This document shows positions 432 through 45,379 of a DNA stretch of 64,000 bases, piece after piece (position 1 is the first letter of the stretch; every line of letters begins with the position of its first letter). Made by a program: the position numbers and the translations under genes. Origin of the DNA: Glandiceps talaboti (lineage: Eukaryota > Hemichordata > Enteropneusta > Spengelidae); NCBI RefSeq assembly GCF_964340395.1, contig NC_135558.1, positions 13,841,501 to 13,905,500 on the forward strand, given 5' to 3'. The notes beneath the pieces were generated by a model, which saw only the letters and a list, made by a program, of their open reading frames with translations, searched no databases and was not told the origin of the DNA.

Positions 432-3232
432 CTGGACTTCAGTAGAATCAGTAACATCAGCAGGTAAGGTAAAGGCACCAACTACAATACTTTCTCTACT
501 GGCTCTAGGACCACCACCACTACTTGTTGAACTTGCAGTACTTGTACTTGTTGGTCTGGTGGTAGTAGAGGTCCTAGACTGAGGTGGTGGTCGCTGCACC
601 AAGTGGACAACCTTACCATCAACTTGGTATTCGGACAATTTTTTATCATCCTGTAGTACTCTGCCTTGGTAGATGAGTCGCTGTAAATTTGCTGGGATAT
701 TCTGGGATAGATAAGGAAATGTAACAGATTCATTTAGGAATTTCTGATGGACTGGAAGTGTACACATACAGGGCAGTGAAGTGAAGTACATGCAAATTTT
801 GTCCTAGAAGACTCAGTCACAGTGTACTTGTACTGTTAAATTTAAAATTGGACTGACTTAGGCAACTATATGTAAATTTGACCATTACACCAATACGGTG
901 CACTCAGGCAGTTCGTGATGGCTGGCTTGCACATACATTTTCCTATTCATAATTCTAGAAAACTCTGTATTTGTTATTCAAATTCATGCATCTCTGAGCA
1001 AAATTTATGAAATGTAGGCACTTCTTTGTTCTCCATATTTTGTTTACATTCAAGAATTGACGTTTTGAAGTTTTTTTCATTATTCTTGAAACTTTCTATA
1101 CAACATGGTTTTGTCCATTGGAACTATGTATATCTCAAATTGAAACGAGTAAATGTAATTTCAAAATTTTGGAATAAATCACATCTTTTACCACTGCTTA
1201 TTTACAAAAATTGTACAGTATCTTTGTTTAGGCTTACTAAACATAAATTACATCAGAAGCTTTTCAGTTTCAGTTTCAGTAGAAATATTCCCCAAAACAT
1301 ATAATCTCAACTTGTGCCCCTTTAATATGGGATGGTGGGGGTGGGGGTGGGGGTGGGGGTGGTCAGCTAATGGTATATACTTACCACATCTTTGGCTATC
1401 TTCTCTTTAAACTCCTTCACTGTTAACTGTGAAAACATACCGAAATCATAACATTGCTGTCAGAAATCGTATTCATTCAATGATTTTGTTGCATCTGCTA
1501 CAAACATGTTATTGTAATGAATGTATAGAGCATTAAGTCTTGTATTTACATGTCAGACATGTCAAGGCATAAAGATATAATTTATCTTGCTTTCTAAATT
1601 TACGACACATTTTTTTAATCAAAATAATAGCCCAGTGTCATCCTATTAGAAGTCTTTTGGCTGTGAACGGCGGTTGGGTTGAGTTACCGATTTAGGAAAC
1701 GATACACTTGTACTACATTTGTGCATGGTATTCATGGTTTAGAAATCAGAATTAGGCATTTACAAGTAATATGTATAACACTGCTACATGTAGGCTAGAA
1801 CTGCCCAACAAATAGTCATAAAAATACATCAATTTAATAGTAAATCTATAAGGTATGGCATGCCAGGGAACTCTAACGCATTGGCCAACCCCTTTTGGCT
1901 GAAGAGGGCTAAGTAACATGACGACGACGTAATTTTACAGTGTATCTAAAAGTATGTAGAAATATTACAAAGTATACAGTTGAGTTGGTACATTGTAAAT
2001 ACTTGCGTCTCAATGGTATCAACACTACGGTATCAACATTGCAAATTCCTCGACCACTGCAAACATCACTTCACTAAAATAGATTTATAATACCTACTGT
2101 AATCAGCCATTCATGGCTGTGATGAATACCAGCTAAAAGATTACAAACTACATGTATATGTATGTACCAGCTACATGATTTACAGTGCTTCATACAAGTA
2201 CATTGTACATATTCAATGTTGGATGAACTCTACTTGAGTCACCCAGTTTGTATTTTTAATGGGGTTCTCAACTTATTCATAATGCAATATGTTGAAATCT
2301 ATGCAAGTTTCATCAGATTTTACTCATTGTAATATTGGGTTTCCAAAATTTGCATATTGAAAGCCTTTCACTAGTCTTGCTGCTAGACGTTCGAGCTTTC
2401 TTTCGATGCTATAACAATAACAGTCTAGCGAATGTCATTTTCAGACCGGACATTCCATTGAGATTACATTGAGCGGTGGGTTGGGCCATCTATGCATATA
2501 TATATACTTTAATATATTCAATAACCTATGACCTCGGGGAATCTCTGCATGCAAGTGTTGACAAACACATTTACGTCATTACTATGGCTTATCGGTTTAT
2601 GGTAATTGTGTGTTTGATGAGTGTGTAGACGTTGTCATTCACACATTTCATTTAACGCATTGGTGGTTATTTATACAAGCCCCTCCTTAAGATGAATATG
2701 CATGAAAATTTAGCTATTGTCCTCTGTTTGTGTTTGTCGCTAATACGGTTCTCTGATTGGCAGTTATTTATATCCTGATGACATTCGCTAGACCTCGGAT
2801 GTTCCATCCTCGATAGCGTTGTTCGGCTGTGTGTCGTATTTTATCGGAAGAACATCCGAGGGCTAGCTGATAGACTAGCCTTTCACTTATTAAAGGGGGA
2901 AATGTACATGTATTATACATATAGCTAAAATACTAGCATGGGTTTCATGCTACTGTTCGATCATTATTTTTGTTTATACATATATGCAAATTTATCTTCC
3001 TGGTTTTTACATCAGAGAATACACCCTGGCAGGACTCACTCAATCCTTAACAAAATTTCTCTAATTCTCTCTCTAAGCTGGTCACTTTGTGAACATAATC
3101 TTTTTTTTTCATATGTGTTCCTACAGTCATCATTAATAATCATTTGCTAACCATAACGTATATACTTACATTATCAAGTACAGAAAATGACCTGGTCTGT
3201 GAATCCAGAGTTTTGATTGTAAGCTCAATCAT
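432..3232 (-). CDS. BAG6: BAG6 (BAT3/Scythe), N-terminal part, gene continues off the left edge
   Basis: Three phase-0 coding exons are visible, in transcript order 3232-3170 (ATG at 3232), 1426-1385 and 701-432, giving the first 125 residues. Each is flanked by good GT and AG signals. The product begins with a ubiquitin-like domain: [14 protein letters not shown], then [14 protein letters not shown], then [15 protein letters not shown], which is nearly identical to vertebrate BAG6. After it comes a Ser/Thr/Pro-rich linker and the conserved VVGAFTLP segment. BAG6 is a cytosolic and nuclear chaperone that holds hydrophobic clients for tail-anchored protein insertion and for ubiquitin-dependent degradation. 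The C-terminal BAG-like region lies outside the window; no further exon was found in 1-431. The start is chosen because the Ub-like fold begins directly at this Met, as in other short BAG6 N-termini. A 5' untranslated exon probably lies upstream near 9269. Confidence 0.88.
2372..2877. mobile_element. 506-bp non-autonomous DNA transposon with a perfect 9-bp target duplication
   Basis: It starts TAGTCTTGCTGCTAGACG and ends GGGCTAGCTGATAGACTA. GCCTTTCAC flanks it on both sides (2363-2371 and 2878-2886). A terminal hairpin, CCTCGGATGTTCC against GGAAGAACATCCGAGG, is shared with the 162-bp relative at 6824-6985. No transposase frame is present. Confidence 0.88.
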
Positions 3233-3354
3233 TATTCTTGTATTATTATTATAGTAACCTTTGGATCCAAATGACAGCTACCTGATGCCTGTTGATACAA
3301 ATACAAAGAATTCAGGAAATATTTTAGTTTCTGTAGTACAAGGGATTGAGGGGA

Positions 3355-3682
3355 TTACACCATGCACAAGCCAGGTTCTATGAAAAATATGGAATATATA
3401 CGCTCTATGTCACGACAACGTGTGTCTATGTCACCGGTTCTGCTGTCTTCGAAATATGAGACAAAATGTTCAAAATGGCCATTACCTTCCCCAATTTTTC
3501 TTTGATATTACTTGCGTAGGTATAATTACGTTATTCTCCAGTATTTTTCTTCATTCAATTGGAAAATACTCATGACCTAAGTGTTGTCACTTCGAGATGC
3601 TAGACAAGTAGTGACACAGCCCCCTTAGGTCACTTGTATTTTCCATGGATGAAGAAGACAAATATTGGTGAATGATATCTAA
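3355..3682. mobile_element. Family-B hairpin repeat, copy 1, in BAG6 intron 1
   Basis: It begins CACCATGCACAAGCCAGG and ends in a hairpin of GGAAAATACTCATGACCTAAG against CCTTAGGTCACTTGTATTTTCC. Related copies lie at 27592, 34138 and, truncated, 35993. Confidence 0.75.
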
Positions 3683-6600: not shown

Positions 6601-6823
6601 AGTGTAACCATTTATATAACAACATCAGTGTTGGTAAGGCTTACACCCAATTTTGTTAAAGGGGCACAAGCTGAGTTTATAGGTTTTTGGGGTGTAACCG
6701 TTTGTCTTCATATTAAAAGTACTCATGATGTATACTTAATCATCACTTGCAATTAACTGAACTCAAACCTGGTATGAGGATATAACTTATAAATGATCTG
6801 ATTGGTTATAACAATGCTAGAAC

Positions 6824-6985
6824 TAGTCTTGCTGCTAGACGTTCAGGCTTTCTTTAGATACTATAAGCGAACGAAGTTTGCAGTGAGGGTTTGCCTAAAC
6901 ACTTGGATGTTCCATCCTCGATAGCGATGTTTGGTCGTGTGTCGTATTGTATCGGAAGAACATCTGAGGTCTAGCAGAAAGACTA
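6824..6985. mobile_element. 162-bp MITE, short relative of 2372-2877
   Basis: Ends TAGTCTTGCTGCTAGAC and GTCTAGCAGAAAGACTA are inverted repeats with one mismatch. Flanks TGCTAGAAC (6815-6823) and TGCTGGAAC (6986-6994) form a 9-bp target duplication with one change. Confidence 0.87.
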
Positions 6986-8555: not shown

Positions 8556-8839
8556 ATTGGCAGAGCTATAGAAAAAAGTTGACTCACTCCTTTTTAAGAT
8601 AACGCAAATGTGATGGCCTGGGATTGAAACATGGCCCTTTAGTAGTTCCCTACTAACTCATAATAATCCAAGACCATTTACTAATCGGAATATTACATGT
8701 CAGATATAACCATACCATTCAAAAGTTTTTTATGCTAAAATGTAGTATTTAGAATTTTTACACTTGGAGTGCGATCCAGGTTATTTGGTTAAATTATGAC
8801 TGGTATTGCAATCAAACATTCAATTTCAAGTTCCTACCT

Positions 8840-10025: not shown

Positions 10026-13000
10026 ATGGTAGTGACGGAGTCGAATCTGTTTGAGGGAAAGATGAAGCTGAGAATCAGTGATATGAAGGGAGACGAAGGT
10101 AAGTCACTCGTGATTATAATGAATTTTAATCATAATCATAGACCCTGTGACTTGCTAGAAATGTTCTATCAAAGGTTCATGTGATAATTAACATGTGTAT
10201 GTGTAGCATTCCTCGAGAAAACTACATATCGTTGTGGTTTTTTTTTGCAAGAAAGTGTTCCTTTTCGTTGACAATTTTGACCGGCAAATTTACTGGACTT
10301 GGGTCGACAGTAAACAACCCCCCCCCCCCCCCCCTTCCGCACACACCAGCACATTTTGTAGTTCCTGTTTTTAATCTCCATAAGAAAGGAAAGCGTCTAG
10401 TGTTTTGTACAAGTTCTGTCATGATAATGTACAACTTGTCAATGCTTATTCTTTTGTTTTCTTTTACCCCATTTCAGATTACAATGACGTCATTGTAGCA
10501 TAGATTTCCGTGTCAACTAGACACTAAAAATACTGTTTTCCTCTTTACTAGGTGTGATTGAAGTTGATCCAAGTACAACGTCAGAGAAAGTTATTGAAAG
10601 ATTTCTATTGGATCATGTGGCAAGTAAGTGAACTATTAAAATAATTTCCCCAAAACCACCATATTAATTTTTAAAAAGGCCAAGTTTAGTACCACTCTGG
10701 TCTCAATAGCCGATCCTGAGTGGAATGGCTATTTACCCCCACCCACAATATTATTTCTCTTCTTTGAACATTTTTTCTCAAATAAATGTGTAACTTTAGG
10801 GGTTAGGTTTGGACAAACATACCAAATAGTATACAAAATGTAGTCATGCTTGCAGACGGTGCACGGGTCTAGATTACTGACATGACCCTCAACATGTTTC
10901 ATGGCTGTCTCGTCGCAGGATGGAGAAGGGAGGGACAGTTGTCAGTATTAAGTCCCGAATTACTCAGCCTGCAAGCAGGACAAACCAAATGGTAGTAGTT
11001 TTCAATATTAGGATAGAAAATTTACATAACTTTATATACAAATTCCCTGTAATGTGGCTATGAAGTACGGGTACATATTAGTGACAGGCATATCAGATTC
11101 AGAGTCAATTTATTCATCCCACTAGGGGCAATTAAAATGACAGTTAACACAAATAAAAACACAAAAATAAAACTGCATAGTACAATGGTGAAAAATAAAT
11201 CCACAACAAGTTGCTACAAAGAACAATTGTGGTTGCTGTTAAGAACAGAGATAGCGGATAGGACAAAGTGGGATTTTAAATGGGTTGTTTTAGATACTGC
11301 AGTGTGGTATGTACCACTCCTAGAAATAAATCAGTTGTTGAATTCTGCATAGAGTGGATGCCATGGGAAGGGTCTTTCAGAACACTATGAGCCTTCAACG
11401 TCATGTGTTTTGTTGTAGATAGAAACTATACTTTTGCTTTGTTTACCAATAATTTGGCCATCATTTTTGATGATCTTATTGTTGTATAGGCCTTCATCAT
11501 ACCAAACCATACATGAGTGACCATTGCATTCATCTTGTTTATTTTTTATACATATATTGCTGTGTAATTCAAAAGTCATTTGTATTCGTGAAAGGTTGTG
11601 TAAAAATAGACTTTTGTTCTCAACACAGAAGAGAAAATTTCATGTTTTGTATTGGAATAATGGTAAATGTACACAATGTATTGCAGTCTATTCAGATTTC
11701 AAGAACATACTTATTTTTCAAACAGGTACAAACTGTTGTAAAGCCGTCAGATTTTTATTATGATTGCATATATGTTGATCAGATGGCTGAAGGTCTCACA
11801 TACATTTGTACCCAGAATGCTTCTCATTCACCTTGAAATTTACAGTGTTGTCACTAAACCATCTGGGTCATGCAGTGCACATCTTCTGGTGTATGTGTAC
11901 ACATGTTTTGGAAAGTTAACAAACAAGAGTTTGACACCAATACTCAAAAGATCCATGTTTTTTTTCTTCAAGCACGGTGTGTAATACCAAGGTATACACC
12001 AGTGTAATCTGTACCCTTCTACATATTTGCTCCTCTTTCTATGCCTTGTTGCACAGTAAAATGTTGAGGTCATCATCCAAGTCACATGCGCATGTTGGGT
12101 CCCCACGGCCACACAACAGAATGTTTACTAACCAAAACAGGACAAAAAAATGGAGCCAATTAGTACTGTACTATGATTAGGCACCCTTACATTATGTGTT
12201 TTCTTCAGTTGAAACAATGAACAATATTTGGGAATAATATATACATGTAGTTTTTCCAAACTACATGGGTGTATCCTCGATCTCTTAAAACTGTCTTAGA
12301 TCTTTTGTCAATTGATATTTAATTCTTTTACTTACAGTGACACGTCTTGAGGCAGCCAAGTCTGCCAAGTCTCTGCATTTCAGGTTAGTTCATGTATCTA
12401 CTGGTAACACATTACCTGAAAATGCTACACTGGGACAAGAAGGTGTGAAAGACGGTGGTAAGTAGTGTTGTTCTATGTTCTAGAAGCTAAGCTACAAGAT
12501 GCTACATATATTGGGTGTCAATATTACTGTTTTGGTGGAGGTAAACTGAAAGATGTTTAAATAGTCTTGTCATTTCTATAAAGGAGGGGGGGGGGGGGGG
12601 GGGGCTACATGCACATTTGTAGATTAGTGTTGTCCTGTTATATGGACAGTGATAATGTTTAGTAGAAGTTTTGAACTCTGAGCATAAATAAATTACCTCA
12701 AGTATATTTTGACAATAATTTATCTAGTATTTTCGACAATAATTTACCTAGTATATTTCAGCAATAATTTACCTTAGTAGTATATTTCCAACAATAATTT
12801 ATCTAGTATTTTTCGACAATAATTTACCTTTAAATTAGTAGTATATTTCAACAATAATTTATCTATATATTTCAACAATAAGTTATCTAGTATATTTCAA
12901 CAATAATTTACCTTAGTAGTATATTTCAACAATAATTTATCTAGTATATTTCAACAATAATTTATCTAGTATATTTTGGTTAAATCACTTAGCCTTCTCT

Positions 13001-16000
13001 CCATCTGTTATGCTAACCAATATAAACAAATTGAAGCTGATGTAATACATCACATGCAAATCAAATTGCAGCCAATGATTAATAATTATTTATTCATAAT
13101 TGCAATTTGCAGATGAATTAATACTGTTAAGGAGAAGACTTCCACCATCACCAATGTTAGCAACAGGAGATGTAAGTAATATTAGTTTGCCTAGATATTC
13201 AAATCCAACGTACAATGTATCTTTCCAAAATGTTCTAGTAAATTAAACTTTCTCTGTGCCACATGATATTGTTATCAGGCAAAATTATACTGTTGTATGT
13301 GATTGATACAATAGAAATTAATTGCTATGCTACCAGAAAATAACACCAAGATATGTGTAAAGGTGTGAAAATATTCAACCCAGCTGATCTGGTCAGTCAT
13401 ATACAAATTTATTAGCCCAAATATTCTATAATGTACATTGTATTTAAGATGATCTCATCAGTTGTATGCAAATGTATTGGCCCAAGTGTTCTTTGAAATA
13501 TATACTAAATCTCTGATCCAAATGATGCAACTTAGTGATATGCAAAGTCTTTGATCTAGGTGATCTTGTCAGCGATATGCATAGTTATTGACCCAAATGT
13601 TTTGATAGGCCTGTTGCTAATTGTTCAATCTAGGGGATGTGGTCAGTAACATGCAAATGTGTTGCTCCAAGTGTTCTTGTAATCAAAGTGTTTAATCCAA
13701 GTAATTTGGTCATGTAGACAAGAAATGTTCAATCATAGTGATTTGGTCAGGGATTTGCAAAATCCAAGTGTTCTGTCAAATCTTTTATTCCAGGTGATAA
13801 CATACTCTATATGCAAATTCAAATTGCCTTCCAGAAAGACAAGAATAAAGCACCTAATGCTGAAGCTATTGCAAAAGCCACAGAGGGAATACCAGCTAAA
13901 AATACAGAAAGAAAACCTGAGAATCCACCACCATCAACTGAAGTAGGTCACAGAACATCTATTACTATTATATTAAATAAAGAATGGTCAATGTAGTATG
14001 TTCAGTAAGACATTGAAGGTGCATATGGGTATCAGTCTCCAGCTTGTCAATTTATGGTTAAAAAATTTATATAGTGATAGCAGTATTGTAACTGTTAATG
14101 ATAATTTAGTACTACTCTGGCAATCGAGGTCTTAGTTTGCTAAGATAGACCATAGACCCTCCATCCACATTTATAGTAAAAATTATTTGGGTGGAGGGTC
14201 TATGGATAGACACAAACTAAAACTATTATTGCGACATGTGGATAGTAGCTATTGAATGGATGTTGGTTTACCGATAATTGTACTTGCAGCAACTGGAGCT
14301 GAAGCCTGAGTAGGATCCAACTGAAAGCATACATGTACATGCATCTAACAAAACAGGCAACAGATGTCATATTTTGCATTATTTCCTAACCAATCAAAAC
14401 AAACCTTACTGTTAGTACAGAAACTGCTTTTTACTACCAATCAGTGGCAATCTTCCAAGGGCTTCACATTGACCTACAATAAGACCAGCAGTTGTGATAA
14501 AATATACCAATAGATCACTTCAAGTTTAAATAATGAATGGCTGGCTATCCATCAGACGTATGGCTAATTCTTTCTGATCATTTCATATTTTCAACAACAG
14601 TTTTCCAAGGAATTGAGAAAGATTCTACTAACACTGACAGAGACTTCACACAGACTACTTTGTCTAAATCCAGATGCTGTAGAAATTATATCACAGGCCA
14701 GTGGTGAGTACTTCTTATATACACTTGAAGTAATATGTTTAATAAAATTTATTCATAGTTTTCATTGAAAATAGCTTACCATACTTTGTGTTGTCATATG
14801 GGAAATTATCCATAGTTTTCATCAAAAATGGCTTACAAAGTTTCGTGTTATGAGAAATTAAGAAGTTGTTGATTTACTTGAAAGCAGGGTTATTCACCCC
14901 ATATAATAATAATATTGATCCTGTGAGGGAAAATTTAGTCTTGTAGTAAGACCTTGAATCTGTACTTTGGGGGTTGCTGAATAAAGCTAACAGGTAATGA
15001 GTACCGCTGTCTGGGTGTTTGAATATATAGATAACTGAATATAAATGCTATGGCAAATAAGTACACATGTAGCTATGGCGTTCTTTTTGTCATAAGATTG
15101 AACTTAGCAATTTGTGAGTGGAGACTCTGATTCAATGATTGGTGTATTATAGCTGGTATATATTTGGTATTTCAGAAATTCTTGAGGATGAACAGACGTC
15201 AGCCAACAAGGTTGATGAGAAAGCATTACAACAGTTGAAAGATATGGGATTTCCAGAAAACAGAGCCACTAAAGCTCTACTGCTAAATCGGTAAGTGTCA
15301 ACATCAAAGGTATAATCGGACATAAATATAGGCTTTGATTTGGTTATTTAACTGATAAGATAACATGAATACTGTAAAAACCTGGTATTGTGAGAGAGCC
15401 ATGGACCTTTTACAATTTACGTCACCAGTATCTACATAACAGCATTATATGAAAATACAGGGAAATGTCTGTAGCAGAATGGAGTCACACAGTGAATAAG
15501 TTCTTTCCTCTAAGTTCAGACTGAAATTTTTAGTTTTTCCATGTCACAGCATACCAGCAATAGATTCAGTGGCAGGAATGAATACTGTCCTCTGAGTTCA
15601 GTCTTTGAAATCTTTTGTTTTTACCATGTCACAGCATGATGTCAGCAATAGATTCAATGGCGGGAATGAATACTGTGCTCAAAGTTCAGACTGTTAAATC
15701 GTTTGTTTTTTCATTGTCAAAGCATGTCTGTGCTGTAGATTCAATTGCAGATTGTGGGAATGAATACTTTCCTCCACTAAGTTTAGTCTTTGAAGTCTTG
15801 CTTTTCCATTCACAGCATACCTAGATTTGGTGGTGTGAATAAATACTGTCCCTAAAGTTCACATTCTATAATCATTTGTTTTTCCATGTTATAGCCTAGC
15901 ATGTTTGCAGGAGATTGAGTACAGGGAATGAATACTGTCCTCTAAGTTCAGACTGTGAAATCTTTTGTTTTTTCTCCCCCATATCATAGCATGTCTGCAG

Positions 16001-16763
16001 TAGATTCAATGGAGTGGCTACTGAAGCATCAGGATGACCCTGACATTGATAAACCACTGACAACTGCCGAGGAAAGTCAAATCACAGAAGACATTAAACC
16101 TAAACTTGAAGGTGCTACTGGTGGTAATCTTGATAGTGACCTTGCCATATTTACTCAATTTAGGAAAAGAACTTTCAAACCAAATCAAAGAGTAAGTTAG
16201 ATAAAAGAAACCTCTAAGCCATAAAACAATGTTTAGTGTAGACTACATTAACATTGAAAGTTAGTACTTGCCATTTTACCAAATATTTACACACAAGTAA
16301 CGTATGTGAGGAGGGGTTTCTTTTAAACCTGCACTGGTTGTAACTGGATTATTATTTTTTTCAAATTTACAACCGAAAATAGTTCCGTGAAAATTGTTGA
16401 AATACCAATATTTAGACATTGTACATGTTAATTAGAGGTTGATTTGTTCAAAAATAGTATGTAACAGGTTGAAATTGTGACCATAGTGGGGCACTGATTT
16501 TAGGGTTTCTACCCATAAATCAATTTGATTGGATTGATTTTACCATAGTATGCTTATTAAATACAGCAACACAACTATGTTTACCCACAGGTGATTCAAT
16601 ACTGTTCAGGATGTATGATATTATGAGTAAGTCATTATATCGTACAAAAAGAGTTTTATCAACTCTTCCAGTTTAGTGGAGATTTGATTAAGATAACACA
16701 ATCTTGATTTTGAAACCTCTTTGTACATACTCAATCACCTCTTGTCATGCCAAAGTCAGTCAG

Positions 16764-16798
<35 letters not shown>

Positions 16799-18087
16799 TC
16801 AATCAATTAGTCAATTAATCAATCAATCAATCAATCAATCAGTGAATTTAATCACTGGTTTCCACTATGATGTCGAGTTCAGAGGTGCTATGATACTGAA
16901 ATGCTCCTACGTAAATTGTAGCGTGTCTTAATACATGTGCATTTTTATTCCACAATGGGAGATACTAGATTGGATACTGTCCATCTGTTTACACATAACT
17001 ATATCTTTGACATGAACTGGTCAAATTCATTCATACTTGGTACAAACGTCATATGCCATACAGCAAACAGTATCAGAAAGAGCAAAAAGCCAATATTTCA
17101 TCTGACGGGGCACTATAACTTTAACTACTTTATTAGACATGATATTCAAGGTACACTTTGTATAACTATTGTATGTTTGATAGCTTGTACATCTTGCTTC
17201 ATGTTAAACAGGCATTCCTGAGGTTAAAAGAGATGGGATTTGATGAAAAGGATATCATTGATGCACTTAAAGTGAATGGAAATAATGAAAAGGCTGCTGT
17301 AAGTAAAACTTTCTGTCTAATGTTGTTTAGATTCTCCTGTTTACTACAAGGAAATTTTAATGCGATGTACTTAGCTTTCATTTCAACCATCTTTGAGCTA
17401 CGGAGGGTTTCATCTTGGACTAACAGACGTAAATGATAATGATTCAATGATAATGATGGTGATGATGATGGGGGGAGGGGGTGTTCAAGGTGGTGGTGGG
17501 GACGATGTCGTTGATGATGATGATGATGATAACAGCAATGGGATAAAAAATGATGACAAGGATGATGTTTTAGAAAAACCTAACAACCTGTTTCATTTGT
17601 CTCTTTCAGTGTGATTGGTTGCTAGGAGACAGAAAACCCAGTGTTGATGAACTGGAGATAGGATTGAACCAAAGTAGTCCATTATTTCATGCCATTGTCA
17701 ATGACCCTGTAGTTTTACTTGGTCTAAGTAACCCTAGAACTCTACTAGGTAAGTAATTTCATACCATTGTCAAAAACCCCATGTTTTACGTGGTTGTAAA
17801 AAGTTACATCGAAAATGATAATAAGATATGGAAACTCTCAATGAAGAGATGTGTGTGCAGTCATCTTTCACAGAGAATTATCAAGTCAGAAATTATTTAT
17901 TCATATGTACTTTGTTATGTCCGTCCACTTGTAAACTTTTTTTTGTATTTCCTTTCCAACAGCTTTTGAACACATACTAGAAAACCCGACCAGTAGTTCA
18001 GACTATTTAAATGATCCGGTAATTGGTCCAGTGTTGATACAAATATCCCGAATTTATCAGACAGAGAAACATACAATACAATCATGA
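10026..18087 (+). CDS. UBAC1: UBAC1 (KPC2), ubiquitin-associated domain protein 1, complete
   Basis: Eleven exons join in phase: 10026-10098, 10552-10623, 12338-12457, 13113-13171, 13835-13942, 14601-14703, 15176-15290, 15990-16191, 17212-17298, 17610-17748 and 17963-18087. They total 1203 nt and encode 400 residues, against about 405 in human. The protein has an N-terminal ubiquitin-like region (about 1-105), a linker, a first UBA domain at about 192-235 ([18 protein letters not shown]), and a second UBA at about 285-320 ([14 protein letters not shown] ... [12 protein letters not shown]). A conserved C-terminal segment follows ([15 protein letters not shown] ... VLIQISRI). UBAC1 is the non-catalytic subunit of the Kip1 ubiquitylation-promoting complex: it stabilises the RING subunit KPC1 (RNF123) and brings ubiquitylated cargo to the proteasome. 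All key UBA glycines and hydrophobics are present. It is divergent with BAG6. Confidence 0.95.
10624..12337 (+). other. UBAC1 intron 2
   Basis: No coding exon of UBAC1 or another gene is apparent. It contains one MITE-like element (10841-10982). The open frames at 11137-12180 have no recognisable domain and overlap on both strands, as expected by chance in AT-rich DNA. Confidence 0.55.
10841..10982. mobile_element. MITE with TAGTC-type terminal inverted repeats, copy in UBAC1 intron 2
   Basis: The element starts TAGTCATGCTTGCAGACGG and ends with the near-complement CCTGCAAGCAGGACA. It shares its ends and much of its body (GTGCACGGGTCTA; GGGAGGGACAGTTGTCAG) with the element at 47896-48004. 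The right end is mutated, and I saw no clean target duplication here. Confidence 0.65.
12690..12975. repeat. AT-rich minisatellite in UBAC1 intron 3
   Basis: About ten imperfect head-to-tail copies of a unit of 24-33 bp resembling TTTCAACAATAATTTATCTA, some separated by TTAGTAG inserts. A 17-base G run precedes it at about 12587-12604. Confidence 0.8.
13360..13805. repeat. Degenerate tandem repeat upstream of UBAC1 exon 5
   Basis: About four to five diverged copies of a unit near 90-120 bp, each with a GATxTxGTCAG string, then ATATGCAAAT, then GCCCAAGTGTTCT. The last copy runs to the acceptor of exon 5 at 13834. Confidence 0.6.
14133..14219. repeat. Imperfect hairpin in UBAC1 intron 5
   Basis: Arms of about 35 bases, each carrying CATAGACCCTCCA or its complement, flank a short AT-rich loop at about 14170-14187. 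It is probably a remnant foldback transposon. Confidence 0.6.
15520..15989 (+). repeat. Tandem array of copies of the UBAC1 exon 8 splice acceptor and exon start
   Basis: A unit of about 80-95 bp is repeated roughly five times before the true exon 8, which starts at 15990. Each unit holds a T-rich tract (TCTTTTGTTTTT), an AG followed by CATG, and a near copy of the first exon bases (GCAATAGATTCAATGG against the real GCAGTAGATTCAATGG). It then holds GAATGAATACTGTCCTCTAAGTTCAGAC, which is seen only in intronic units. The upstream copies break the reading frame or lack a downstream donor, so the last copy is taken as the real exon, as its protein matches UBAC1. Confidence 0.75.
16400..16570. repeat. 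Dispersed repeat, family shared with 41875-42080 and 58150-58525
   Basis: The segment with TTTAGACATTGTACATG, TAATTAGAGGT and GGGCACTGATTTTAG recurs at 41940-42040 in the same orientation. It recurs in reverse orientation at about 58320-58460. No coding capacity is seen; it is probably a short non-autonomous element. Confidence 0.6.
16757..16846. repeat. (AATC)n microsatellite in UBAC1 intron 8
   Basis: About twenty tetranucleotide units of AATC with a few interruptions. Confidence 0.9.
17443..17560. repeat. GATGAT-rich simple repeat in UBAC1 intron 9
   Basis: A low-complexity tract of GAT triplets and G runs. It creates an artificial Asp-rich open frame that ends before exon 10. Confidence 0.8.
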
Positions 18088-27900: not shown

Positions 27901-30900
27901 TAACATCTAAGTATGAGAGACATCACCCACTGTTATTTGAGTATAATACCAGTAGGAATAGTTTTATGAACGTCAAGCGATTCTTATGTGCCATGTTCAT
28001 ATTAGAATTTCAAGTAAATTCAGGTGTACAAGTCTTCATAAGAGACACATAGACAACAAACTGAGATGGGAGAATAACACTGATATGATTTTACGTAAAG
28101 GTCAGCAGCGTTTATTTTTCTTAAGGAAGCTCAATTTCTTCAAAGTTGATAAAACGATGTTAAATCTTTTTTACAGATCATTTATTGAGAGTATTTTAAG
28201 TTTTTCACTAATCTGTTGGTTTGGTAATCTGAGTGTTTAAAACAAAAACAAGCTTGGTAGAATAGTTAATATCTGCAGTAAAATTATTGGTGTTCAACAA
28301 ACTAGCCTTAGCACACTGTACAGGAAACAAGTCCTGAACAAAGCCAATTCCATACTGAGGAATAGTCAGCACCCCCTTTACCAAGAGTTTGACATTTTAC
28401 CATCAGGACGGCGCTTTAGGGTTCCAAGGACTAGAACAAACAGAACAAAATATTCATTTATTCCAACAGCCATATCTTTTCTTAATCAAGTCAGGAATGC
28501 ATAGCAGCCCATTGTTTCAATGTTTTAATGTTACTGTACCTTATTTTTAGCCGTATTTATTGTATTTATTTTAATGTATCCTGTCACAGTATTTTAATAT
28601 TTTGTGTATAGTTTTTTTATACGTTTAACTGTCGCGCAAAGAATTGCCCATACTGGGATAATAAAGATCTATTGTATTGTATTGTAAACATCCCCCTTCA
28701 CTTCTCTATGATTTAATAGCATCATGACTTACGACTTCAAAGAAACTGGTACTGTAGCAAGAAATACTCCTATAACCTAGAAAGTAGCTATTGGTGTGCA
28801 AGAAATGGCTTGGTTTTGATACAAGAAAGCTTGTACACGATTATATGGGGTTAGACACTTGAATGGAGTTTCTATGTATTAATGTTTTTTTAAGTTATTC
28901 AGTAATATATTGATATGTTTCGACAAATATGGCTACCATTCAATAATAAGTGAGCACCTACACATTAATGCTTGTGTATATTTCTTGTGTTTTATATCAT
29001 CTGTAAACATGATTTTAAAAAAACTGGCAACAAGTAAATATTACTGAAGAATGGATGTGAAACAAGTTTTAATTTGGTTTTTCTTGGCAATTGTGTGAAA
29101 TTTATGAGATGTGAAATCATGAAATGACTCTCCAAAACCCAAGTTACGAAAATGCCCCCTTCCCCATCTGATTAAATTTGCTGTGGTGAATACAATTCTT
29201 TATTTACCTCTCTTTTTTTCATTTATTGTTGTCTATTTTCGATTTTGGGAAGAAGGCGGTCACTCTCAGAACAAAACAAATGACAACAAACGAATGAAAT
29301 AGAGGTAACTAAAGGAACAAAGCTGTATTCACCACATCAGATTTTAATCAGATTGCCCACGAGCCCCTGCATCCTTAGTAGATATGAATTTTAAAACATC
29401 CAAAGAAATATTTCGACAACTGGAGCGTATATTGTAAATGATGTATCTCATATAACACAGCCAAAATTTTAACAAGTATACTATAATTTACCTAAATGTT
29501 ATTTCTTAAACTGAAATAGAAATGCAATGTTTTTAGGTTTTGTAATTTGAAGAGAAATATTTCTACAGCTGGCATGTATATTGTAAACAACATATCTTCA
29601 TCATGCAATCAAAATTTTAACTAAATGTATTATAATTCACATCAATATTATTTCTAAAATTGAAAAAGAAATATATTTTTTTAGGTCTTAACATTTAAGA
29701 GAAATATTTCTACAGCTGGCATGTATATTGTAAACAACATATCTTCATCATGCAATCAAAATTTTAACTAAATGTATTATAATTCACATCAATATTATTT
29801 CTAAAATTGAAACAGAAATATATTTTTTTAAGGTCTTAACATTTAAGAGAAATATTTCTACAGCTGGCATGTATTAATGTGAATAAATATCTTACCTAGT
29901 ACAAGCAAAATTAGGACTAAGTATATCATAATTTACATAAATTTCATTTCTAAAATTCTAACAGCAATGGAATTTTTTTATTTTAAAATTTGAAGAGAAA
30001 TATTTCTACAGCTGGCATATATTAATGTGAATAAATATCTTAGTACAAACAAAATTAAAACTAGGTATGTTATAATTCACATCAATTTATTCTAAAATTC
30101 GGCCAGAAATGGATTTTTGTTGCTCTAATGTACACAGTGTCAACGTGTGTCTTTTGAGAGTCAGATATCCTGTTAATTGATCTCAAAAACATGTTAGTGG
30201 TGTAACAATAACTTGTAAATCAATTGAGGGCAACAGATGTGATTTATGTCAATATGTAAACTGTGTAATGAACAACAAACTACATTCATATGTAAATTAC
30301 TACCATCATATATGGGTTACTTTTCTAAAAAAGTGGACAAAATGGACTGCTGTTTATTTTTTTTACATTTTTTTTCAATTGATTGCCGTACCAGTAAATT
30401 TCACTCTTGCAAGCCTATTTCTAGCATAGTGTACTCATATTTCTGTTGTATGCAAAAAATGTAACTTTACACTATTAAAAAAAAGATAAATTTTCACTTA
30501 TTCTCTGTAGCATTGTGTGTGTTTGTGTGTATATATCTTTGCATGACTGAAAATCACTGGGAGCAATTTTCAGCACAAAAAAAAATTTAAAAAAAAACAA
30601 CCCCCCAAAAATAATTTCACCATTGTAGCCATTAAAATCATCAAGTACACTGTATTCATATCGGCAGAAGCCTGTTTCTACTGCACTGTAAAAGAATAGC
30701 ACTGCTTATCACTTTTCAATGTAATTGGGTAAAGGATCCTGCTGTGTGTACAGGTATGGTTTTTGTTATGGTTAGTCTGGTGTCTATCTTTATGTAAAAA
30801 AACATATCATGTCCCCCATGAGTAAAACACCAAGATAACCCAAATTACACTGTAAATAGCTAGTTTTAGATGGTTTGTACCATATTTATTTTTATTACAT

Positions 30901-33900
30901 ATGTACCTGAGATTACTTGCATTGGTGCACACACTTACTAGTAGTACTAGTAGTATGGCAGTGCAGTACCAAAAATGCATATACCTGTATGCAAATGATA
31001 TGTAAATGAGAATGTGATCATTCGTCCGTTCTACACAAAAACGGATGATAGCATAGCATCATTTTTACAAATGTGTAATAATATGTAATAATAACAGAAC
31101 CCCATGCCACGTGGTGAGTTCCAGTGTGGGAAACTCAGGTGTATTTGCACTTGTGTTTGCAGTGTTTTCTGCTGCACTTTCACTCACTACACTCATGAAA
31201 GTACTGCTACAGAAAACACTGCAAGCAATAATGTCAAAAACCCTGAGTACACCACACTTGCACTTATGTAATGGGTTCTGTCTTGTTATCTGTAGTAGAA
31301 CTTAAAGAACACAGACAGCTGGAATTTCCACTACCTGTAGCTTTATGAAGAAATTGTAGATTCAACACGTCTTCACTTTTATAGCATTCAAACCATTCTA
31401 AATATTGAAATATTTCCAATTCTTTTTTTTAAAGTTGTTACTTTTCTGATTGAAATATGTCATAATTTTACCTTTTCGGGGTCATATCTTTCGTTGACAA
31501 ATTCCAACCAATCATCAGAGGTAATTTTATAATCACCATTATCTTCCACCCAATAGTTTAACTCTTCTAAATAACTCATTATCTGTGGTCTACCTGGAAA
31601 AAACTGAACCCGATACAACTACGATTAAAGCAAATTCCTGTGTACAATAATTATACACATATTGTTATTTTGAAGGGGCACAAGCTGAGTTTACACATGT
31701 GTTGGCGTGGTTTATGTAGCATATTTTGTAAGGTACCCACAGTATTGTACTTACTGGAGCACTTGCAATTAACTGAACTCAAACCTGGTATCCCGGTATA
31801 ATTCAATAAACGATCCAACAATGTAATTTATCATAAGTATAAAAAATGTTCAAGAAATCCCTACAGTAACTATACAACTAACTGTTTTAACAATGTCAGA
31901 AGACAATCCTAATGTTATAGAAGGCAGGCATCGACATGAAAATCATCTACTCAAGGTTATAATGTAAGCATTTTCATAGGAAATCATTGTATCTAACAAA
32001 ACAGTTTCAAAACACGAACCATACTGCAGCTAGTGCAGCTTCAACTGCTGTATTCAAGTATTCAGACTTACTTTTGCTAAAACATCTACAAATTTTTTGA
32101 GAGCTTCCAACCTATCACCCTCTATAACATCATGTAGTGGTATCTCATGCCGGAATGAGTAATGGAGTGTACTTTCTAAGTCTTGCATATACACTGGTAA
32201 ACTGAAAAAAAAGAAGAAGTTATAAAGTGAATCATTTAGTAGTGTACAAAATTAAAGTGTAGTATCGAAATGAATTTTAGTTTCAAACACAAACTTGAAA
32301 ATTGCACCTTTGTGTGTTTAAAACAAAAGTTCAATTCGTTACTATGATTTACCATTGATAACAGATGAATTTCCATTTGAAGAAAGTTACAGTGTGTTTT
32401 TGGACAGGTTTTGAAACCCTGCTAAGAAGGGTAAATCTGATAAAATGTGACTGGATTTCAAACCTTGTAAGTTAAGCAGAGTTTTGGCAGGGAAGCTTAA
32501 ACATGTACAATACCTAAAGAATTGAACTAGAATAGATTTTATCTACTCACTGCCCTTAAATAACAACAATACAGCTTAAAGAAGCAAGAACAAGAATTCG
32601 CCGACTTGGAATCTGCAGGTTGCAGGTTCAAGCCTTGCTGCTGGCATTCATTTCTGAATAGCTAAAGTCCTTGGGTGAGATTTCAACCATGGTTGTGTCT
32701 CAGTCAACCCAGTTGAATAAATGAGGACCTGGTAGGATAGAGTTTGCAATGCGAATACTTTAATCCTATGTGCCTATGGAGACTGAAATAGACTGTATGC
32801 TCCTCAGAGAGTTGAGGAGGTAAATGGTCATTGTACCACTATAGGTCTGTGCCAGGGGTAAAAGTAGTGTTGTGTAGAGCACTATGAATACAACATCCAT
32901 TGCAGAAAGCGCTTTATAAATACTACAGAACTTGCGATGGTCAAGAAAAATAGTGAAATACTTTATAAACCAACAAAAAAATTGTTCAAAAAGTGTGTAA
33001 AAACCTGAAAGATGTGCATGTGCTTTATAAAAACAAATGCATGTATTTGCTTATTTTCATCAAGGATTGGTTTGCTTTAGAATATATTCTATCTCATTTG
33101 TATAGCCAGCAGTAAAAATACCGGTTTTATTTATGACTGTACATCAACGTACACAGTGGTACATATGTAATAAATAACATTATTAATATTTTAATTAAAA
33201 GAATATATCATTTCACAGTACAGAATATATCTATATTTTATATTTACATTTAAAAAAAAGGTAAAAGTTGATGGTACCTTGGATTTAAGAATTAATTTAC
33301 ACAAAGTCAATATGTTTAGTGTTTATTAAAAATGGTGTATACGTACTATGTTACAGTGAACTGGGTCGTTTTTTTATTTGAATTATCTTGTTCATCTTGT
33401 CCTTTATCCTGTGGTTGATTTGGTACTAAATCAGGCATCATTTCATTCTGATCTTGTTGCTGTTGACCTGTATCTTGCTGCTCCTGCGGCAGCCCACCAT
33501 TTTCTCCATGTAAAAACTTTCTTAGCATGTTGTCATTGTCTCCATTTTGTACAGCTTGTTCACCGTTATTAATACCTTGGACTCCTAGGTTTATCTCCCC
33601 TCCTCCCTGATCAGGTCCTGGTATGTTAAATGATTTTGCTGGTAATCCAATACTCAGGATGGAAATACGATAACTTTCCCTGGTTCCATCAACACTGAAA
33701 TAAACAAACATCAGCGATACTGTACTTTAGTAGATGAACCCAATCTGATAATCTGGTGTTGTGAATACAGCCATTAGGCCTTTCCAAACTTTGCCATGGT
33801 GGTGCTCTACTTCCTGTCTGTGTGTACCTTGGGGGTATACATGGTACATGTATAGATGACTCAGTTCATCATAGAGCACTGCTGCTTTCCTTGATGTCTG

Positions 33901-39900: not shown

Positions 39901-42900
39901 AAAGTAAAGTGTGTGCCCTTCTGCTATAAAAATCTTTAAAATTAAATTTCGAGTATAGGATGTGTTTTTAAGATGACAGATATCAGACACACCTGCCAAG
40001 TACATGTACATCATGTTACTGCACTTATAGTTTTGTAAGTGGTCAACACAATTTTTATAAATCGAGTACAGAGTAGGTAGGTTTGTGAAACCCTCAAGGT
40101 GAAAATGCAAAGTGCATGTACATGTGTGTGTATTTCAGCAAGGATAAAAATGTGCCACCAATTTCTAATTTTTCAGGATGGAATGGGAATATTAGTCTCC
40201 TGGATCAGGTGACATTACTGCTGCCCTAAACTGTATAGGCCCTCATGCACAACCAATCTTAATACTGAGATAAAAGTTGAAAGTACGTGAAACAGGGCGG
40301 TATCGCATCATCATATTGATATGGTTACATATATATGAATTTAGGTTACATTGTATAACACACAGGCAATTCTTTAAAAGAGTCATTAAGAGTATGATTG
40401 ATTTGCAAATCCTTATTAAACTGACTAAATCCCTACTTACATAAGTACTTGATTCACTGTGTGTTATAACCTTGTAGTACTTTGCCATATTCCGGTTGTC
40501 ACGGAGATGAAACATTTCATGATTTGGTCACTAGTATAGGTGCACTGTTTGTAAACCATGGGGGGAGGGGGTCCCAAGTGGAGGTCCAGAAGTGTTCAGT
40601 ATTGTAGTGTAAAGAGACCAAACATGCTCTTGCTGTTCCTTTTATTAGTGACTACCAGTTATTAAAACTTGCCTAACCACACCTGTATTGCACATTCAAG
40701 AACACAGAGTTCTTTACACACATTTTGTTCATGGTGTTGTGTATGACCAAATTTTAGCCCTCACTTTGCCCTACTACTGTGATCCTTACTGAAGTGGCGT
40801 GAACTTTGGTAACCAGAATACAGCATAGTAATTCAAGATCTACCAGGTTGAAGAACAATTTTGTTCACGAACATGGTTATAAATCATATCGTGATTAAAA
40901 TCAAACTCTAGAAGTGAAAAAAAAGTATTCCTACCTTTATAAAATTCTCCCATACCACTACTTGTTGATGCATTGTAAAACTGCCAAAGAAAAGAAAACA
41001 GGCACATGTTAAACTATACAGATTGTTATAAAAGTATTTATAATCTCAGAGGCTAGCTAACATCTCACTACCCTTGTCACGGGAGTACACTGAACACTGC
41101 ATCATAACATTACTTATCGGTTCCTGTGATACCACAGATATAAATTGCCATCCCTGGATGCACCATATTCAAGTATACATGTAATATACAACACTTTATA
41201 TACCAGTATATGCGTGTACATGTCATTCCCACAATTCATTACTATTGATAGACTTGTTGCCGGTTCCAAGATGCATTGCATGTCTCTCCATACAATACCA
41301 TGTATTGTGTATGTAATGAGGTGCTACCCAGGGCAATGGTTGTCACCTGACTGTACCCTGGGTTCACCTATAAAATCCCTCTCTATCATTGATTGTGTTT
41401 AGTCTTTGTTATATGAAATCACTCATAATCAAAGAGGTTAACATGTCTTTCCATCATTTCCTGATGAAAATGTTATTTCAAATGTAATAAAGACAAAACA
41501 AGACTAAATGTAACAACATAAGCGACGTCCTCTCGCACAATGCATCTTGGAACCGGAAAATTGACTATTGTCAGATCCTCTCAGCCAATGAGAATGAGAC
41601 GACAATTACTAGTTACCTGCATATGAATGCGATGCATATATATATGGACCAACAAAGGGTGTACTAAAGGTACTACCAGATTACACTAAGAGGACAAAAT
41701 TTCAAATAAGTATTTTTATAGTTTAGGAAGACCAATAACAAAGAAAGGTGAAATCCTGAATAATTTCTACTGCTTCTTACTCAGGTGTACCTTTACTTAA
41801 AAAAGCTGTATTTGTAACAACATATAAATTTCTAAATTTGTGCTTCTCACCCTTAAAGCTGCACTCTACTCATCTGTCTGCTGTAACGAGAGCATACTTT
41901 TTTGACTAGACTATTTACTGAAATGGTTGAAATACAATTAATTAGACATTGTACATGATGTTAACTAGAGGTCTATTGTGTCTATAAGTAGAACAGTAAC
42001 AGGTGATCAAGTTGAGGGCACTGATTTTAAAGTGTGGACCAAAAAACTCCAATTTTGATTGAATTTATTGTACATGTGCCACGGCAGAAGTTCGATGTTT
42101 AGTGTGAGTTGCACTTCTGTTATTATTTTCAACAGGTGGTGTTAAACTTAATTGTCTGTTAAATATAATATTAATGGCCGCAAATCACTTTTGGATGTTA
42201 TCATTTATTTCTTTTCTGTATGTTTATTTCTTGTGGGGAATAAATTTCAATTCAATTCAATTCAATTCAAATCACTATATACCTATATCTTCTTCTTTAT
42301 TACCAACTTATTAAATTTTACATTTGTAGACAAAATAAAATAATACATGTTTTGAGGTACATAAAAGGAGACCAGAAAAAATAGCTACTTGCTAATCAAG
42401 TCTGTCTCATTAGACATTGTACATAAAATTTAAAATTTATAAATAAATACATGACAAAGTATAAAGAGGGCAGTGAAAAAAAACCAACTAAATATCTATG
42501 AAAATATATACATTATACATCAACATGAGTTGCAGTATATTCATATCAGGTGAAGAGAATCTTTTAGTGAGTTACAAAAAAACATTTCTTGATGATTTGG
42601 ACCTAACATCAAGAGGTAGGGTGTTCCAGTGTCCAATAAACATTTAATTTGTCACGTACCTAATCTAATAATTACATTATGAAGCACATGATTAGAAGTC
42701 GGACATTTATTCCAGGCCTACTTTACAGTCAAAAAAACTACGACAGACATGAGTGCTTATAATCTCTTTTCAAAAGCAAACAACATAGCATTATCATCAC
42801 TTTAATGATAACATACACGTATCTCTTCTGTTGCAAAATTTTTTGTTTGTTTGTTAATAACGACGTACATGTAATTTGAAACATATGTTACAGCATTATT

Positions 42901-44076
42901 ATTTATTTGAATCTTTTGTGTACTAGCATTTGCAATTTACTTGCTGTGAATGTTATCACCTGTATACATTTTAGATAACAAACAACACACAATAGAGACT
43001 AACAAATTCTCTAAAAAAAAAAATTCAATTTTTCAATTCAATATTAATCTTCATGAACATGTTTTAGCAAAGGCCTTACATGTTTTATTTATATTTCGTT
43101 TCCCTCCCACTAAAAGGGCATTTTTTGTGTGGTTATTTCCTACACGTCTTTTCTCACTGTATTTCAATATGAAAAACAAGATAGTATCATTTTTAATAAC
43201 GATTAGAAATATAATTTTCAATTTTGATATTATTTGAAAAGGGTATTCACAGATACATGCTTTAGTTCAAATTTACTAAAGTCTTTCAGATTTTTGCAAT
43301 CTTTTTCCATATTTAGCCTTAATTAAATTTTGTCAAAAGGTGATATTTTCTTCTTACGTAAATATTGCTTGTAAATGTAGGATGCAAATATCAAATACTC
43401 AGGAAACATCACAGATATATTTCTCAGTCCCTATGGAAACATCACAGCTATTTTTCTCAGTCTCCATGGAAACATCACAGCTGTCTCAGTCTCCATGGAA
43501 ACATTACAGTGATGTCTCAGTCTCCATGGAAACATCACAGCTGTCTCAGTCTCCATGGAAACATCACAGCTGTCTCAGTCTCCATGGAAACATGACAGCT
43601 ATGTCTCAGTCTCCACGGAAACAACACAACTATTTCTCTTACCTTAAAAGATGGATATCCTCCAATTCCATAGTCTCGACATGTCTTCAGGTTTATTTCT
43701 TCTGAACAATCTATTGCTCCTAGTTTTATAACATTATGCCAACCTTAAAAAAAAACCAATAAAACAAACCGCAATGACACTAATACTCCAAAGAAGAAAT
43801 TATCCAGGTCATGGTTGCTATGACAATGGTGACAATTTTTTAATATCAAAATTCAATAATTATGACATTCTATAAGATTTTGCTCATTAATTTTTTGAAT
43901 GTAGAGGAGTTCAAAACTGACCATAGTAAATGGACTTTGTAAGAAATGATTTTTTCCATCACATCATGACATGTACATGTTGACTGAAAATTCTTATGAT
44001 TTGATTTTCCCTCCAAAGGACAAGTGTAACATTTTGTTACATTTATAGATTTGTTTATTTATAGATAAATAAACAG

Positions 44077-44112
<36 letters not shown>

Positions 44113-45379
44113 AAATAACTTAAAATAACAAATAAGTAAATGAATGAATGAATGAATGAATGAATGGATGGATGGATGAATGAATGAATGAATGAATGAA
44201 TGAATGAATGAATGAATGAATGAAAAATTAAATAAACTTCAAGAATGCACATTTTGTATCTATATGCTGCAGTACTTCATTGTTCAAAGTTGGATTACAA
44301 CCAGTAACACTAAAGTAAAGTACTTTCTTTATGTGCTACACTCGTTTATAGCATTCATATCAAGTGTCAAAGTATACTATTTCAATTGGTTTATTTACAA
44401 GCTTATAGCATTGTGGCCTTTCTAATGTGGACAATTAGCAAATGAAACAGTATACTTTTACACTTGATATGGATGTTTTGAATGACTGGTACAGCTGTAC
44501 ATACAGAAAAACGCTTTACTTTGGTGTTATGGGTTGTAATACATGTAGTCTAGTTGGTGAATGTAGTAGTAGTAGTACATTCATGATCTGGTCTTTGAAG
44601 ATACACCCACCCACCCGCGGCGCTAATAGCAACAATTTAATTAGTATATTTTGACGTGGCTTATTTCACTACCCTTTGTTATTTAGCCACATGTAACATC
44701 TGTGCATGCTAAATATCATTATTTGTCAATTATTTCTGACACTTGACCGGGTCGCAACCTCAAATGAGCTTTCACGCTGTTATCTTGAAAATATGCGGCA
44801 ATGAACGGTTGGCTAGGCTGGGCACAGTTACGTTCGCCATATCTGCTAATTCTTATAGTCGGAAGTAGTTGTGTATTTTCACACGTCGTATAAGACGAAT
44901 CACACTACGTGGGCGACGCATTGTGTGTCATTCGATTCCCGTTGCACGTAGCCACCCGGCTTATTGATTTCCGCAAACTTGACCTGAAACGGCTCGTAAA
45001 GTATCGAACCACAAAACAGGTGTTCGTTGTTTTGACTTGGCGGTATATCTACATTACATGATAAAGGATATATCCCAGAGACGAAACAGTCAGTACTTTG
45101 AACACGAAGATGTTAACACATACCTTTTATGTCTTGCGCTAACGCCTTCCAGTTCGGGGCAAAACGTACACAGTGTCCGCACCAGCTGGAATAAAATTCG
45201 ATCATCCACGCATTTTTTGTATCAAAAATATTTTTCTCAATGTTATTACCATCTAGTAGAACTAAGCCGTCTGCCTCTTTGTAAAGTTTATGCTCTGATA
45301 AAGATAATTGGAATAAATGTAAAAGTATGAGATAGCGGAGACTAGCGATCAGCATGTTGTTGACGCTGACAGCCGCCAT
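24902..45379 (-). CDS. QSOX1: Quiescin sulfhydryl oxidase (QSOX), complete
   Basis: Twelve exons in transcript order: 45379-45124, 43743-43643, 40980-40935, 38761-38729, 36875-36776, 35727-35628, 34736-34588, 33694-33347, 32201-32072, 31603-31472, 26494-26356 and 25536-24902. Together 2169 nt, 722 residues. A signal peptide (about 1-28) leads a thioredoxin domain with CGHC at 67-70. A second thioredoxin-like segment has no CxxC. Then come a Gln/Asp-rich linker in exon 8, a helical module (FFPGRPQ), and the Erv/ALR FAD domain with catalytic CREC at 534-537, the FAD-contacting SHNKANNRL, and CPSC at 594-597. A single membrane helix (about 686-709) ends in a basic tail. QSOX oxidises thiols of secretory proteins to disulfides and passes electrons via FAD to oxygen, in Golgi or outside the cell. 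An invertebrate single-copy QSOX is pre-duplication, so the symbol is shared by convention with QSOX1/QSOX2. Exon 4 is a 33-nt microexon. Confidence 0.94.
25581..25720. mobile_element. 140-bp nested hairpin MITE in QSOX intron 11
   Basis: Inverted ends CTTTGATGTAGCCACTATTT and AAAATAGTTGCTACATAAAG enclose a second hairpin, TTAGTGCAATAAGG against CCTTGTTGCACTGA. A related hairpin lies just after the zinc-finger gene stop (50474-50576). Confidence 0.7.
26355..26710. repeat. SINE-like fragment and (GGTT)n tract near QSOX exon 11
   Basis: A (GGTT)n run at about 26586-26611 is followed by GCAGAGCTATAGAAAA and GGGATTGAAACATAAGCCTTT. The latter strings recur at 8562-8660 and 37270-37400, so they belong to a dispersed family. 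Part of this interval (26356-26494) is QSOX exon 11. Confidence 0.55.
27592..27917. mobile_element. Family-B hairpin repeat, copy 2
   Basis: About 326 bp related to 3355-3682 and 34138-34473. Shared strings are ACCATGCACAA, AAAAATATGG, AAAATGTTCA, GGTATAATTATGTTATTC and a terminal hairpin in which TTTTTCTTCATTCAGC, GGAAAATAC and CTAAGGG are mirrored by CCCTTAGGTCAC and GGCTGAACAGAGAAAAA. Confidence 0.75.
28005..28684 (+). pseudogene. 5'-truncated non-LTR retrotransposon (LINE), reverse transcriptase C-terminal remnant
   Basis: The translated frame has strings typical of the end of an L2/CR1-like reverse transcriptase [33 protein letters not shown], then an in-frame stop at 28238-28240, then [34 protein letters not shown] and KYSFIPTAI, ending at a stop near 28502. 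A 3' untranslated part ends in a short ATTGT repeat (about 28663-28684), which is usual for this group of elements. It sits antisense inside QSOX intron 10. It is dead: the 5' part is missing and the frame is broken. Confidence 0.85.
29165..29365. mobile_element. Foldback element, short member of the 56735-57235 family
   Basis: Left arm ATCTGATTAAA ... GTGGTGAATACA ... TTTATTTACCTCT is mirrored by AGAGGTAACTAAAGGAAC ... TGTATTCACCACA TCAGATTTTAATCAGAT. The centre contains GGCGGTCACTCTCAGAACAAAACAAATGACAAC, shared with the longer relative at 57130-57160. Confidence 0.75.
29400..30115. repeat. Tandem repeat of about 148 bp, five copies, in QSOX intron 10
   Basis: Copies start near 29405, 29551, 29699, 29850 and 29998. 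Each begins GAGAAATATTTCTACAGCTGGCATGTAT (the first copy diverged), then AACATATCTTCATCATGCAA, then a TTATAATTCACATCAATATTATTTCTAAAATT block. Copies two and three are almost identical. Confidence 0.9.
31675..31805. repeat. Dispersed repeat (GGGGCACAAGCTGAGTTTA family)
   Basis: The two strings AGGGGCACAAGCTGAGTTTA and CACTTGCAATTAACTGAACTCAAACC bracket this copy. The same pair brackets 6660-6780, and in reverse 56500-56652; a lone end lies at 1305-1322. Confidence 0.7.
32595..32935 (+). mobile_element. Probable tRNA-derived SINE in QSOX intron 8
   Basis: A box-B-like GGTTGCAGGTTCAAGCC lies near the start. A long body follows, then a 3' segment with GAGCACTATGAATACAACATCC and AAAGCGCTTTATAAATAC, the kind of end seen in several invertebrate SINEs. 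No clear box A was found, so the boundaries are approximate. Confidence 0.5.
33775..34046 (-). mobile_element. Family-A MITE-like element, copy 2, in QSOX intron 7
   Basis: Reverse-oriented copy of 20950-21217 and 57432-57704. It starts TAGGCCTTTCCAAA and ends TGGAATGGCCTA, so its ends are inverted repeats of about 12 bp with mismatches. It stops 80 bases beyond QSOX exon 8. Confidence 0.8.
34138..34473. mobile_element. Family-B hairpin repeat, copy 3, in QSOX intron 7
   Basis: Follows the family-A element directly. It keeps the best version of the 3' hairpin: TTTTTCTTTATTCAGCCGG ... GACCTAAGGG mirrored by CCCTTAGGCCAC ... CGGCTGAACGAAGAAAAA. Confidence 0.75.
35993..36135. mobile_element. 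Family-B hairpin repeat, truncated copy 4
   Basis: It keeps ACACAAGCCAGG and AAAAATATGGGTTCAATACCCTGG from the left end, then jumps to TAGGTCACTTGTATTTTCGATGG and GGAAAATATTGGAGAATAA from the right. The middle is deleted. Confidence 0.65.
36371..36678. mobile_element. Family-C foldback element, copy 1, in QSOX intron 5
   Basis: Almost the whole element is two inverted arms of about 120-150 bases. AGTGGCCATATGGATGAGG pairs with TTCTTATCCATATGACCACT, and TTTATCATGGCTTCCTA with TAGGAAGCCATGATAAA. A smaller hairpin, TTATTGTATGTACAATAA, sits at the centre. Its right end lies about 97 bases from QSOX exon 5 (36776). Confidence 0.8.
37545..37876. mobile_element. Family-C foldback element, copy 2, in QSOX intron 4
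   Basis: Same design as 36371-36678: ATTTATTTTGGAAATTTAATTTATAAAACAATTTTATCATGG pairs with its complement near 37800-37850. The centre carries GTAATTGTACATACAATTT. Confidence 0.8.
41430..41580. repeat. Dispersed repeat, second copy of 19240-19380
   Basis: Shares TGTCTTTCCAT and TTATTTCAAATGTAATAAAGACAA plus the GCAATGCATCTTGGAACCGG segment with the copy downstream of UBAC1. It lies in QSOX intron 2. Confidence 0.5.
43415..43630. repeat. Minisatellite of about 30 bp containing X-box-like GTCTCCATGGAAAC
   Basis: Seven copies of GTCTCCATGGAAACATCACA plus GCTGTCTCA, with the outer ones diverged (CCCTATGGAAAC, GTCTCCACGGAAAC). On the QSOX strand the array begins about 13 bases after the exon 2 donor (43642). 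Each unit holds a 14-mer resembling an RFX X-box. It produces two artificial open frames. Confidence 0.9.
44079..44224. repeat. (AAAT)n and (AATG)n microsatellites in QSOX intron 1
   Basis: A run of AAAT units (44079-44112) is followed by AATG units (about 44138-44223). The latter reads as a false Phe-Ile-His-Ser open frame on the minus strand. Confidence 0.95.

Follow-up and report, generated by a model that had tools for sequence, protein, structure and literature searches.

The close packing of BAG6, UBAC1 and QSOX in the DNA analysed here, a stretch of 64 kb that we refer to as the window, raises the question of whether these genes are a fragment of the proto-MHC block, preserved since before the vertebrate genome duplications as the original prediction held, or an ordinary neighbourhood. 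The window has 0 N and a G+C content of about 31 to 39% (in 4 kb steps), and its genes are spliced and animal-like. From left to right these are BAG6 (- strand), UBAC1 (+), QSOX (-), a C2H2 zinc-finger open reading frame (ORF; +), a coiled-coil-like ORF (-) and FOXRED1 (+). Thus, BAG6, UBAC1 and QSOX are consecutive recognisable genes, and the claim that they are neighbours within 45 kb was borne out by gene models together with Pfam and structure matches, both ends of the interval 432-45379 coinciding with exon ends. The start codons of BAG6 and UBAC1, which stand head to head, are separated by 6.8 kb, and the stop codons of UBAC1 and QSOX, a convergent pair, likewise by 6.8 kb. Because of the distance between the start codons, a short two-way promoter shared by BAG6 and UBAC1 was set aside.

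To obtain the gene models we used a script that forces GT-AG junctions, guided by human protein sequences. The exact splice junctions are therefore provisional, with poor sites at introns 2 and 5 of both QSOX and FOXRED1. Compared with the human proteins, only about 44 to 57% of residues are identical, and for this reason a vertebrate origin of the window was set aside; judged from the alignments, the identities of BAG6, UBAC1 and QSOX are not due to chance. In the case of BAG6, the window holds the ubiquitin-like N-terminal part only, namely, the first three coding exons (3232-3170, 1426-1385 and 701-432, - strand), which encode the ubiquitin-like domain plus the next segment and are separated by introns of 1743 and 683 bases. 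The donor of the third exon, after base 432, was read from the sequence, and the remainder of the gene lies past the left window end. This part is identical to the N-terminus of human BAG6 at 65 of 115 aligned residues, and the ORF of its third exon matches the Pfam ubiquitin family (2.1e-12). Among solved structures, two BAG6/BAT3 chains (around 5e-16) are the best matches to this exon in which a single stretch passes on its own; five poly-ubiquitin chains outrank them by summing weak repeats, but no single repeat among these passes. Accordingly, both the human sequence and the solved structures place the N-terminal ubiquitin-like domain closest to BAG6.

UBAC1 is complete (10026-18087, + strand), with 11 exons encoding 422 residues, 189 of which, over 388 aligned, are identical to human UBAC1. 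The joined protein shows the domain layout of this family in Pfam, that is, UBL_UBAC1 (PF23326, 2.6e-12) followed by two stretches of UBA (PF00627). All ten of its introns have GT-AG borders, which were imposed by the script and thus do not represent an independent finding. A minisatellite with units of 25-139 bases is located in one UBAC1 intron (12701-12976).

QSOX is nearly complete (45379 to 24902, - strand), with 10 exons found, encoding 689 residues; a small exon was probably missed between 43643 and 36870. It has two thioredoxin-type domains, FAD_SOX, Evr1_Alr and a hydrophobic segment close to the C-terminus. In the script-joined protein, Thioredoxin (PF00085), QSOX_Trx1 (PF18108), FAD_SOX (PF18371) and Evr1_Alr (PF04777) all score above the Pfam cut-off, such that the four domains occur in one chain. 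The best solved relatives of the last exon are chains named 'Sulfhydryl oxidase 1', and searches with this C-terminal exon in collections of non-animal genomes and viral contigs gave 13 pattern matches and 1 pattern match, respectively, none of which was confirmed. By pairwise comparison with the human sequences, the window protein is identical to QSOX1 at 216 of 494 residues and to QSOX2 at 197 of 482, and the two human proteins are identical to each other at 237 of 527. It is therefore nearly equidistant from QSOX1 and QSOX2, and may be outgroup-like, by a small margin, in these pairwise comparisons. The description of the window as invertebrate-like is based on this near-equidistance together with the moderate identity to the human proteins. 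Human QSOX1 is located at 1q25, where LHX4 adjoins it.

Several features of the QSOX locus were recorded in passing. A provisional exon (33347-33679, - strand) encodes a linker of some 100 residues, rich in Gln, Asn and Asp, that precedes the FAD_SOX domain and is longer than that of human QSOX1. Two minisatellites fall in QSOX introns, one with a unit of about 149 bases (29404-30118) and one with units of 29-89 bases (43402-43628). An intronic ORF on the opposite strand (27965-28240, +) matches the Pfam model ALKBH8_N (1.9e-12); since this model frequently matches the end of LINE reverse-transcriptase ORFs, the ORF is probably a retrotransposon remnant.

To the right of these genes lies a fourth recognisable conserved gene, FOXRED1, which was absent from the original prediction (55890-62607, + strand; 7 exons found, 453 residues, with the start codon and some junctions uncertain). 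Its name rests on the human sequence, with 222 of 422 aligned residues identical, and on its first and last exons, both of which match Pfam DAO. FOXRED1 belongs to a family of mitochondrial complex I assembly factors, and in human it is found at 11q24, outside the four MHC-paralogous regions. One of its introns contains a minisatellite with units of 36-172 bases (61421-61964). Between QSOX and FOXRED1 are the C2H2 zinc-finger ORF (48521-50470, +; 649 residues from stop to stop), downstream of which there is a perfect GA dinucleotide run of 59.5 copies (50943-51061), and the coiled-coil-like ORF (52798-54186, -; 462 residues from stop to stop), made of Glu/Arg-rich repeat units. The DNA of the latter is a tandem array of a 105-base unit (8.5 copies, 74% matches), and the opposite strand carries an ORF of 365 residues. 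The coiled-coil-like ORF has no Pfam match and one NCBIfam match below cut-off (24 versus 110 bits). Across the window, a scan with Rfam gave 0 families at gathering score and a tRNA scan gave 0 tRNAs, and Pfam searches of 20 further intergenic ORFs yielded 0 matches above the curated cut-off and four weak ones below it.

How much of this arrangement is old can be judged by comparison with human 9q34.3. In the window, UBAC1 and QSOX are direct recognisable neighbours in convergent orientation, whereas human UBAC1 and QSOX2 are on one strand. None of the 11 ORFs scanned, out of the 15 of 60 residues or more that lie wholly between the two genes, passes the Pfam cut-off, and therefore NACC2 and LHX3 were unrecognised in this interval. 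The human region tabulated as 138,727,320-139,162,389 contains CAMSAP1, UBAC1, NACC2, LHX3 and QSOX2 (PMC4433918), so that UBAC1 and QSOX share one short stretch there too, and the assertion that human UBAC1 and QSOX2 are close to each other in 9q34.3 holds within these 435 kb. A 2.188 Mb deletion of 9q34.3 spans UBAC1, NACC2, LHX3 and QSOX2, and also NOTCH1 (PMC4766673), and both UBAC1 and QSOX are named in two further papers (PMC7205035; PMC5867598). That the two genes are paired in the invertebrate-like DNA of the window and are also found within 435 kb in human is good evidence that their linkage is old, and the UBAC1-QSOX association is thus probably ancient. What the window adds to the human arrangement is BAG6.

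BAT3, which is the same gene as BAG6 (PMC3396635), appears in the list of human MHC class III genes (PMC1309616), in agreement with the original prediction. The same source lists 6p21.3, 9q33-q34, 1q21-q25/1p11-p32 and 19p13.1-p13.4 as MHC-paralogous regions (PMC1309616), and the predicted membership of 6p21, 9q34 and 1q was therefore correct. Kinship between 6p21 and 9q34 has been argued in a study that, like the work cited there, takes the proto-MHC as one chromosome region, and that gives rxr, notch, pbx, brd, psmb5,6,7-like and c3-like as framework genes of the ancestral complex (PMC10751288). The idea of such a linkage is not new, as a title among the references of another paper (PMC2756280) already argues that 9q34 was organised ancestrally as part of the proto-MHC, and background is available for the chromosome 1 paralogon (PMC1945033). 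However, one reconstruction, based on 18 proto-vertebrate chromosomes (Pvc), regards the proto-MHC chromosome as an artefact of later fusions and splits its putative content among seven of them (PMC8302630). Moreover, comparison of amphioxus and scallop, with 17 CLGs, depicts conserved linkage with a largely scrambled gene order (PMC7269912); the arrangement in the window would resemble this description, in that linkage is kept while order changes. Since order is scrambled inside linkage groups, the close packing of three genes from the same chromosome can arise late.

When set against the MHC paralogon and the amphioxus proto-MHC, the window shares BAG6, as a class III gene, and UBAC1 and QSOX, as genes of 9q34. 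Given this class III membership and the MHC-paralogous nature of 6p21 and 9q34, the position of BAG6 beside UBAC1-QSOX is compatible with one ancestral linkage group, a fit that falls short of proof. The window differs in that NOTCH, PBX, RXR, BRD, PSMB5-7-like and C3-like genes were not recognised in a partial search, in which 40 ORFs were inspected visually and Pfam was run on 40 ORFs or exons, the window having 1299 open stretches of at least 28 residues, and in that FOXRED1 maps outside the paralogous regions. We also estimated how readily such a fit arises by chance, on our own assumption that 5 to 12% of human genes lie in the four regions. Treated as independent draws, at least three of the four genes would fit with a probability of 0.0005 to 0.006, a figure to be read bearing in mind that UBAC1 and QSOX2 are not independent. 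Given the UBAC1-QSOX pair, the probability that BAG6, FOXRED1 or both fall in the four regions is 0.10 to 0.23, and BAG6 alone is therefore weak evidence. Among the matches listed, judged by titles and abstract openings, there was no report of BAG6-UBAC1-QSOX linkage; a centipede genome paper was rejected as a BAG6 report, as 'BAG6' occurs there merely within an accession number.

With these data at hand, the ancestral-block hypothesis can be upheld in part: UBAC1-QSOX is probably ancient and BAG6 fits, but a preserved fragment of the block is unsupported, since one species cannot tell kept order from later intrachromosomal shuffling. That the tight three-gene order is a surviving piece of the proto-MHC block, in place since before the vertebrate duplications, seems to us improbable, even though all three genes map to human MHC-paralogous regions, when QSOX1 at 1q25 is considered. 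FOXRED1 is out of keeping with this proposal, no framework gene was recognised in the partial search of the window, and the convergence of UBAC1 and QSOX is at odds with their common strand in human. The same proposal has to accommodate the scrambling of order within ancestral linkage groups (PMC7269912), as well as the division of the putative chromosome among seven proto-vertebrate chromosomes (PMC8302630).

A different history, in which UBAC1-QSOX is ancient and BAG6 came from another ancestral chromosome through a lineage-specific translocation, is rather unlikely but deserves some weight. The human location of FOXRED1 shows that another gene of the window likewise maps elsewhere, and under our assumed shares a chance fit of BAG6, FOXRED1 or both is expected in 10 to 23% of cases. 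The placement of putative proto-MHC pieces on several ancestral chromosomes (PMC8302630) points in the same direction. Nevertheless, 6p21 and 9q34 have long been named as paralogous regions (PMC10751288; PMC1309616), which makes common origin the simpler prior. Finally, it is very improbable that the whole arrangement reflects chance or an assembly join. It is known from one window, but this window is without N, the exons of UBAC1 and of QSOX follow one another in uninterrupted order, and UBAC1 and QSOX2 also lie within 435 kb of each other in human (PMC4433918).

We therefore favour, with moderate confidence, an ordinary neighbourhood consisting of a bilaterian UBAC1-QSOX linkage and of BAG6 as a most likely member of the same ancestral linkage group. 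According to this explanation, UBAC1 and QSOX would have been linked already in the bilaterian ancestor, and this linkage would survive in human 9q34.3. The vertebrate genome duplications may then have led from one copy of the group to 6p21 and from another to 9q34, with loss of the extra copies. The position of BAG6 beside UBAC1 could be old, or else the product of shuffling inside that chromosome. The identities, order and strands of the genes are shown by the window itself, whereas the human UBAC1-QSOX2 linkage is taken from papers, and we infer the common descent of the linkage and the share of BAG6 in it. Two observations count against the favoured explanation: FOXRED1 of the window is at 11q24 in human, and the fit of BAG6 is subject to the chance level given above. 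The three proteins act separately, BAG6 being a chaperone in ubiquitin-dependent quality control and UBAC1 a ubiquitin-ligase partner, while QSOX forms disulfides in the secretory route. Altogether, the locus is best described as ordinary deep synteny, for which the proto-MHC label is plausible but unproven.

The three-gene order bears on the debate between a proto-MHC that was one region (PMC10751288) and one that is a fusion artefact (PMC8302630), for which a single window is indecisive. Should this order prove widespread in invertebrates, it would connect a class III MHC gene with one particular part of 9q34 before the genome duplications.
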